Assembly (NCBI RefSeq): GCF_005116445.1
Contig: NZ_SWBQ01000007.1
Span: 1-64,000, forward strand
DNA: 64,000 nucleotides
Direction of reading: 5' to 3'
Source of the DNA: Pedobacter frigoris
GTDB taxonomy: Bacteria; Bacteroidota; Bacteroidia; Sphingobacteriales; Sphingobacteriaceae
In this document: positions 18,738 to 54,004 of the stretch, one piece after another
Layout of the letters: every line of letters starts with the position of its first letter
Position numbering within the stretch: position 1 is the first letter of the stretch
Translations under genes and position numbers: made by a program
The notes under the pieces: model-generated
Databases searched by the model: none
What the model saw: the letters and a program-made list of their open reading frames with translations, nothing else
What the model was told of the DNA's origin: nothing

Positions 18738-19082
18738 TTACTTCAAAAATTTAGTTAACGTTTTTTCCAGCATTTCAACTCTTAGATTTTTAGCCACAAT
18801 TACGCCATTAGGATCAATCAGGAAATTCTGAGGAATTGCAGAAACTGCATAAAAACCGGCGGCTACATTTTTCCAACCCATCAGATCACTTACCTGGGTC
18901 CATGGCAAAGCATCGTCTTTTAAGCTGCAAGTACATTTGAATTTTCTGCCCGGCAAGGTCCACACCAGCTTACCCAAAAATCAAGCAGTACATATTTTCC
19001 TTTATATGAGGATAAAGAAACGAGTTTACCATTTACGTCCGGCTGACTAAAATCCTTTGCCTTTACCCCAATTGCGATCATG
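18738..19082 (-). pseudogene. Broken TlpA/thioredoxin-like gene
   Basis: The remains of a TlpA-type thiol-disulfide oxidoreductase lie here in two frames. One frame from the ATG at 19080 reads KDFSQPDVNGKLVSLSSYKG and DFWVSWCGPCRAENSNVLAA, including the WCGPC active site, and then stops. A second frame resumes with LKDDALPWTQVSDLMGWKNV, then IPQNFLIDPNGVIVAKNLR, and ends at 18738. About 25-30 residues that normally lie between these segments are missing, so an internal deletion caused the frameshift. The 5' end is also cut: a stop codon sits five codons before the ATG, and no signal peptide or DUF4369-like domain is seen. The 138-bp palindromic element begins 30 bases away at 19112. The gene cannot make a normal enzyme. 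Confidence 0.82.
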
Positions 19083-19111
19083 ATAAGGCATTGTAGTCAG
19101 TTAACGCTGCG

Positions 19112-19249
19112 TTCGCTATGCGTTCGTATCATCTAGAGTACTGCTCCATATCATCTGGGGTGTTGGTTCGATTGGAACCGAACCAACACCCTATCAACAC
19201 TGAAGCACCACCCTGGCGACACCCTAGTTGATACGAACGCACACCGAAA
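19112..19249. repeat. 138-bp palindromic element, copy A
   Basis: This segment has 13-bp perfect terminal inverted repeats (TGCGTTCGTATCA at 19119-19131, TGATACGAACGCA at 19229-19241) and a 13-bp central hairpin (GGGTGTTGGTTCG at 19158-19170, CGAACCAACACCC at 19179-19191). Its left edge, TTCGCTATGCGTTCGTATC, matches copy B at 53840 in 17 of 19 bases, and its right edge, GCACACCGAAA, matches in 10 of 11. The two copies are almost equal in length (138 and 137 bp) but differ inside while keeping hairpin structure. No ORF of note lies within. It resembles a MITE- or REPIN-like interspersed element, which is an inference. Confidence 0.7.
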
Positions 19250-19358
19250 ACAGACCAAACGTCCCTTACTGATATCGCTTAACGTCGGGTTAAGTCTATT
19301 ATAGGAGTGGGCAAAAATATTGAAGTTCCGGATTGTAAAATTGTTCTAATTAGATGCT

Positions 19359-34938: not shown

Positions 34939-35449
34939 CAAAAAAGGATTGGATTTTGTAAATATAAGGGTTGAAATGCAATTTAGGAACAGAAGTTTTT
35001 AACAGTTCCTGGTTGAAAAATACTGCCTTTCAATCCATTGTTATCCGGAAACAAAAGATCACTTAAATTTGCTGGATAATGCGCCCTGGACAAGCACGCC
35101 TTCCGTTCTAGCCTTGTTTAGATTAAACACGGAGTAAACAGGGAGTAAACAAAGGGTATACACGCTTTATACCCGCTTAATGAGCGTGTAAACTCCCATT
35201 ATAATTCGTGTTAATTCCTGCTTACCTCCCAATTAAAACATAAGCAGGCTATAACCAATTGCAGGCTCGATTAGCACCTCTTTAGTGCCTTAACAACAAA
35301 GTATCATGGATTTGTGTTGATTAAAAAAACAATATATTTAAACAAATTAATTATTTCGATTGTAGAATTGTCGGATAACTAATTCTTTTTAGCCCAGATG
35401 GCATGGTTTTAGTTATTTATTGATTTGTAAAACCTTCAAATTATTTCAG
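34939..35449. other. Intergenic region between parC and tamB
   Basis: No gene is visible. The divergent promoters of parC and tamB should lie here. The middle part contains two direct copies of GGAGTAAACA (35131-35140 and from 35142) and a nested set of inverted repeats at 35141-35197. The remainder is AT-rich, with no other clear structure. Confidence 0.55.
35141..35197. promoter_or_regulatory. Nested inverted-repeat cluster, possible pseudoknot
   Basis: Three complementary pairs interlock here: GGGAGT (35141-35146) with ACTCCC (35192-35197); GGGTATA (35154-35160) with TATACCC (35168-35174); and ACACGCT (35160-35166) with AGCGTGT (35183-35189). The third pair uses the loop of the second, so both together would form an H-type pseudoknot. 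Function unknown; it could be a leader RNA structure or an overlapping operator set. Confidence 0.45.
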
Positions 35450-53749: not shown

Positions 53750-53839
53750 AGTTTGGGGATTGTTAATTGAATTATAGTTCCTCAAATCCGTATTAACCAA
53801 ATAAGACAAGAAATAAATTTAGTTTCCCCTCTCCCTGGC

Positions 53840-53976
53840 TTCACTATGTGTTCGTATCTTCTGCGGTACTGCCGCTTCATGTGGGGTATTGCTGGGCTCA
53901 GGACCCCAGCAATACCCCAGCGGCACCGCAGAAGATGCCCCGGCTGTAGCCCGGCAAAAGCGAGCACACACCGAAA
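53840..53976. repeat. 137-bp palindromic element, copy B
   Basis: This element matches copy A (19112-19249) at both edges (TTCACTATGTGTTCGTATC on the left, ACACACCGAAA on the right). Its interior folds into a long hairpin with three stacked stems: ATCTTCTGCGGT (53856-53867) with 53925-53936, GCCGCT (53871-53876) with 53919-53924, and GGGGTATTGCTGGG (53883-53896) with 53905-53918. That gives 32 paired bases, with bulges only on the left arm (ACT and TCATGT) and an 8-base loop. No coding sequence is evident; ORFs across it are by-products of the palindrome. Confidence 0.75.
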
Positions 53977-54004
53977 GGAAGACAGCAGGAATATAAAACC
54001 GCAT

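Follow-up and report, generated by a model that had tools for sequence, protein, structure and literature searches.

Dispersed palindromes in bacterial genomes are usually attributed to RAYT transposases or to MITEs. REP sequences are recognized as units of 20–40 bp with a conserved GTAG/CGTC tag and inverted pairing. A separate precedent is parC of plasmid R1, in which direct repeats of 11 bp stand in tandem at a spacing of one helical turn and serve as protein-binding sites, the 11-bp iterons being bound by ParR. The elements described here were found in the window (the whole 64,000-nucleotide stretch of Pedobacter frigoris DNA analysed) and elsewhere in the same genome. With MITEs they have in common that they are short, non-coding, multi-copy and intergenic, with inverted conserved ends and variable cores, but their interior is made of 11-bp words. 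REP/BIME and REPIN sequences likewise are intergenic palindromes in several arrangements with a mosaic composition; those consist of one 20–40 bp palindrome, whereas here there are 11-bp periodic arms of 4–7 words and no RAYT (Y1) transposase. The likeness to parC-like arrays lies in tandem 11-bp direct repeats at one per turn, a layout for which protein binding is known in parC; the present arrays, in contrast, are inverted round a hairpin, dispersed chromosome-wide and drawn from several unrelated families.

A period of ~11 bp is also found in bacterial DNA at large: two papers (PMC4132750, PMC516772) interpret it as the pitch of negatively supercoiled DNA, and an intergenic concentration is reported for E. 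coli. That periodicity is a weak genome-wide AA/TT bias; in the present case entire words recur, confined to discrete palindromes whose predicted curvature is not unusual. In the literature searched on Bacteroidetes palindromes and 11-bp repeats, no description matched these elements.

Two elements with common edges

Copies A and B (Table 1) agree, as the original prediction had stated, at 17 of 19 bases of the left edge (TTCGCTATGCGTTCGTATC at 19112 and TTCACTATGTGTTCGTATC at 53840) and at 10 of 11 bases of the right edge (GCACACCGAAA and ACACACCGAAA). We also recover the 13-bp inverted ends (TGCGTTCGTATCA/TGATACGAACGCA) and the 13-bp central stem (GGGTGTTGGTTCG/CGAACCAACACCC) that had been assigned to copy A. 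Strong inverted repeats had been claimed for both copies, and both fold far better than shuffled sequence (z about −8 to −10 for copy A, −7 to −8 for copy B). The edge pattern lies beyond chance, with three matches against 0.19 expected and none of 100 shuffles reaching three. The predicted segments of 138 and 137 bp are real, but the similarity between A and B extends a few bases further, to ~147 and ~146 bp. Palindromic elements with conserved edges were thus correctly described; what had been missed is their construction from tandem 11-bp words.

The thioredoxin/TlpA-like remnant neighbouring copy A is frame-broken and truncated ~10 bp from it, as if its 5′ part had been lost at the element.

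Table 1 Positions of the arrays, their parts and a neighbouring gene remnant in the window
Feature	Position	Strand	Description	Basis
Copy A, whole type-1 element	about 19107..19253	.	147 bp = 11x13+4; 6 words on the left, 7 on the right	Edge match and word layout
Copy A left edge TTCGCTATGCGTTCGTATC, outer words	19112..19130	+		
Copy A central hairpin: innermost word GGTGTTGGTTC, centre GATTGGAACC, inverted word	19156..19191	+	Covaries between copies	
Copy A right edge GATACGAACGCACACCGAAA, inverted outer words	19230..19249	+		
Copy B, whole type-1 element	about 53835..53980	.	146 bp; its two arms differ in subtype	
Copy B central hairpin	53882..53919	+	18-bp arms, 94% complementary	
Thioredoxin/TlpA-like remnant	18738..19096	-	Frame-broken, truncated	Stop-to-stop ORFs; identity by eye from WCGPC motif
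Third 11-bp word array with hairpin	35114..35213	.	Unrelated word family GTTTACTCCCT / GTTTACTCCGT, minus-strand reading	

A dispersed family with interchangeable cores

Queried with copy A, the whole genome (G000, 4.69 Mb) yields over a dozen related loci, and copy B adds others; about 1.26 Mb was scanned in full and the remainder covered by BLAST and pattern searches. The edge pattern GATACGARCGCAYASCGAA, allowed up to three mismatches, occurs at 24 places in the genome against one for the backward control, so that the terminal inverted repeats are conserved between copies as they are in MITEs. The family comprises about 20 elements: 14 type-1 copies, A and B included, and six type-2 copies (L043, L056, L057, L059, L064 and L066), whose ends are those of type 1 and whose core is different but mutually conserved (..GTAGCCCTACCAACCCTTGAGTAGCCCCTATGAAGGGGTTGTGAAGTGC..). 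A third core type with type-1 edges is probably present at L188. Genome-wide copy and edge searches therefore bear out the original prediction of a repeat family scattered in many copies, its ends conserved and its cores variable. That prediction was to fall if further copies and compensatory changes were both lacking; each of them is present.

The elements measure 113–180 bp and are non-coding, as MITEs are (no coding capacity, under ~600 bp). Copies are spread over several contigs; 41 of 44 are clearly intergenic and every gene orientation is represented. Neighbouring genes around type 1 are divergent in six cases, convergent in five and tandem in two, with no orientation bias. Two type-1 copies, L006 and L031 (G000:C1 near 121k and 563k), adjoin genes starting M(A)xYxxYTDQELxALLKQG; the three such genes that flank this pair look, from their sequence, like ECF sigma factors.

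Arms built of 11-bp words

Over 14 copies, base identity within the arms is 0.43, 0.44 and 0.35 at lags of 11, 22 and 33, against about 0.26 elsewhere, which amounts to the tandem direct repeats at helical spacing characteristic of iteron- and partition-type sites. Each arm consists of 4–7 tandem 11-bp words, and arms differ from one another by whole words. The left-arm consensus is GGTGTTGSTTC, inverted in the right arm. Copy A reads, going inward along the left arm, GCTATGCGTTC GTATCATCTAG AGTACTGCTCC ATATCATCTGG GGTGTTGGTTC, followed by the centre GATTGGAACC and an inverted right arm carrying one extra word. Edge-to-edge lengths of type 1 are 113, 125 (twice), 136 (four times), 146, 147 (five times) and 158, exactly 11n+4 in 12 of 14, and those of type 2 are 158 (five times) and 180, all 11n+4; the rule overlaps in part with the periodicity, because the edges themselves consist of words. 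Type-2 elements have an identity of 0.40 at lag 11, without signal at lag 22.

Sixty unique middle words fit the degenerate motif GNWNYWNCTNS. Their column heterogeneity is 0.213, where permutation reached 0.013 at most, a result that duplicated words drifting neutrally would not produce. Second neighbours resemble each other more than adjacent words do (0.52 vs 0.40), which suggests a 22-bp alternation. Intrinsic curvature does not exceed that of shuffled sequence (mean z −0.36, by a wedge model).

Covariation confined to the central hairpin

The original prediction had looked for covarying stems, and these prove to be limited to the innermost word pair. This pair, which forms a 14-bp central hairpin, covaries (p=0.0002): 92% of its cells are paired, and double changes occupy 17 cells, compared with 7.0 in shuffled data (0 of 500). 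The outer arms give no within-copy covariation (p 0.8–0.99 for most slots), and past the innermost word a left arm is complementary to the right arm of its own copy to no greater degree than to arms of other copies. The element is therefore not one covarying stem throughout; the long palindrome makes most sense as a pair of inverted arrays of a single motif with a short true hairpin between them. Covariation of the inner pair could stem from template switching and on its own is no proof of selection on RNA.

An element that works when transcribed, as a structured RNA or as an mRNA 3′-end hairpin acting as stabilizer or terminator, would account for the covarying hairpin and for folding that is strong whichever strand is read (z −3 to −10). 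We regard this as improbable, given outer arms that do not covary, the lack around type 1 of the orientation bias that a terminator would show, and an 11-bp phasing of lengths for which an RNA hairpin has no need. Rfam gives no gathering match within the window, with sub-threshold hits only, in seven loci. Assignment to a structured non-coding RNA finds no support on two counts, covariation of the whole structure and membership of a known Rfam family.

Tests of mobility

Target-site duplications and a linked transposase, both of which a MITE-like origin had been expected to reveal, were not found, and on this showing the elements look different from MITEs: across 20 copies there is no consistent flanking duplication at any offset, and among the edge matches in the genome there is no linked transposase or autonomous element with these ends. 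These matches are short elements or chance matches, none with a gene between the edges. A classical MITE is to that extent unproven. The genes of the nearest relatives are ~75–78% identical, so that empty sites are not readable base by base; at the copy B locus the OmpA-like gene retains its terminator in several relatives and the neighbours differ, which leaves no base-exact empty site.

The original prediction had also named REPINs. Palindromes of REPIN/RAYT type, or derived from IS200/IS605 and mobilized in single-stranded form by a Y1 transposase, would be dispersed without target duplication, as these are. However, Y1_Tnp (PF01797) has 0 matches in G000, G102, G109, G152 and G199, and the absence of a Y1/RAYT transposase from this genome and its array-rich relatives leaves a REPIN identity unsupported; the array-poor G239 has two, and its 200-kb sample is without a hairpin array. 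No GTAG/CGTC tag stood out on reading the copies by eye, and an 11-bp word lattice is not known as a REPIN trait. We give this origin very little credence.

The same design in unrelated words

The third array of the window has a gyrase/topoisomerase IV subunit A gene on one side and a TamB gene on the other; there is a second copy of it at L238:11670–11741, near G000:C14:251.7k. Three GKTRTTG words at a spacing of 11 match repeatedly in genomes of the same genus (28 times in G102, 11 in G152 and 7 in G109), with none for the backward control. G102 has a family of its own, in which word indels are exactly 11 bp. In G199, of another genus in the same taxonomic family, 35 loci carry AAGTGAGKTGT arrays around AAGTGC-loop-GCACTT.

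When hairpins flanked by periodic arms were sought in an unbiased way, periods 11 and 22 stood out. Period 11 came up ten times (six in G000, three in G102 and one in G199), the finds in G000 belonging to unrelated word families, while all periods other than 11 and 22 total five over all data; the thresholds were set by hand without a held-out set, comparison with other periods and other taxa serving as the control. Period-11 hairpin arrays were absent from E. coli (150 kb), Persicobacter (400 kb), G239 (200-kb sample), G106, G109 and mixed taxa. Type-1 edges, which had been expected to recur in relatives, are exactly matched in none of the 98 searched. A word motif universal across the unrelated families was not significant (Fisher p=0.22).

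Scattered single matches to the exact edges in unrelated taxa of a genome collection look like chance. Matches in IMG/VR to three successive GGTRTTGN4 units, mostly simple tandem 11-mers on unrelated contigs, were set aside as coincidental, and the plasmid and phage collections held nothing similar.

These comparisons bear on two further explanations. Arrays that attract a nucleoid, centromere-type or silencing protein, and owe their retention to a role in controlling the chromosome or expression rather than to being selfish DNA, would make good use of one-turn phasing, a degenerate within-family motif and an inverted layout suited to cooperative binding, and would be expected at intergenic positions over several contigs. 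Yet one would expect a chromosomal system of this sort to persist from species to species, and type-1 edges are missing from all 98 relatives searched; several unrelated word families, moreover, coexist in one genome. Architectural or partition-like sites of this kind are, we think, unlikely, if still a serious candidate. Neutral growth, in which slippage expands palindromes, template switching at the hairpin corrects them and the 11-bp step reflects helix geometry with no bound protein, would explain why G102 gains and loses words in units of exactly 11 bp and why unrelated words have only their period in common. It sits poorly with a family motif kept far beyond permuted expectation, with ends conserved across loci and with dispersal, and we consider it rather unlikely.

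A model for the elements

The anatomy of the element is well supported; its mechanism we infer. Our preferred reading, held tentatively and rated somewhat short of an even chance, is that the copies form a non-autonomous element of MITE-like kind, in which the inverted arrays offer helically phased putative sites to a family-specific DNA-binding protein. Dispersal with shared ends and interchangeable cores points to copying. That words of a family keep a common motif speaks for their being read by sequence, and their spacing of one turn for proteins stacked along the same face. The short, non-coding, intergenic element presents two inverted 11-bp word arrays flanking a short central hairpin, each word filling one turn of negatively supercoiled DNA. 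Each word would be a putative binding site of the family-specific protein, whose protomers may stack on a single face of the helix, and this protein would mobilize, or would once have mobilized, the element in trans in the manner of MITEs. Arrays would gain and lose sites through 11-bp slippage, and template switching at the hairpin would maintain complementarity of the innermost pair. Against this reading, each unrelated word family would need its own protein, target-site duplication is missing, and the edge matches include no autonomous element with these ends.

The recurrence of one 11-base design in unrelated families points to a repeat, mobile or protein-binding, of a kind not yet described. 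More broadly, and doubtful although quite possible, there may be an undescribed class of elements, so far in two genera of this taxonomic family, whose common trait is architecture (inverted one-turn word arrays round a hairpin) and not sequence, with unrelated families arising repeatedly per genome, each with its own putative DNA-binding recombinase or architectural protein. As a set, the families do not readily fit either the RAYT or the MITE explanation and are built on the DNA helical repeat, with gain and loss word by word. Should the words prove to be protein sites, their cognate protein would count as a new mobilizer or chromosome-organizing factor; otherwise an 11-bp duplication process would be at work at hairpins.

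Additional arrays and their context

Further arrays depart from the hairpin-centred layout. The arrays at L202:13187–13336 and L237:15047–15184 repeat AGCAAGAGAAA words at 11 bp, are almost identical to each other and show little palindrome, and one-armed arrays occur at L233 and L192. In G102, several copies (L126, L127 and L128) start right where the T-run of an apparent intrinsic terminator ends, which may reflect an insertion preference.
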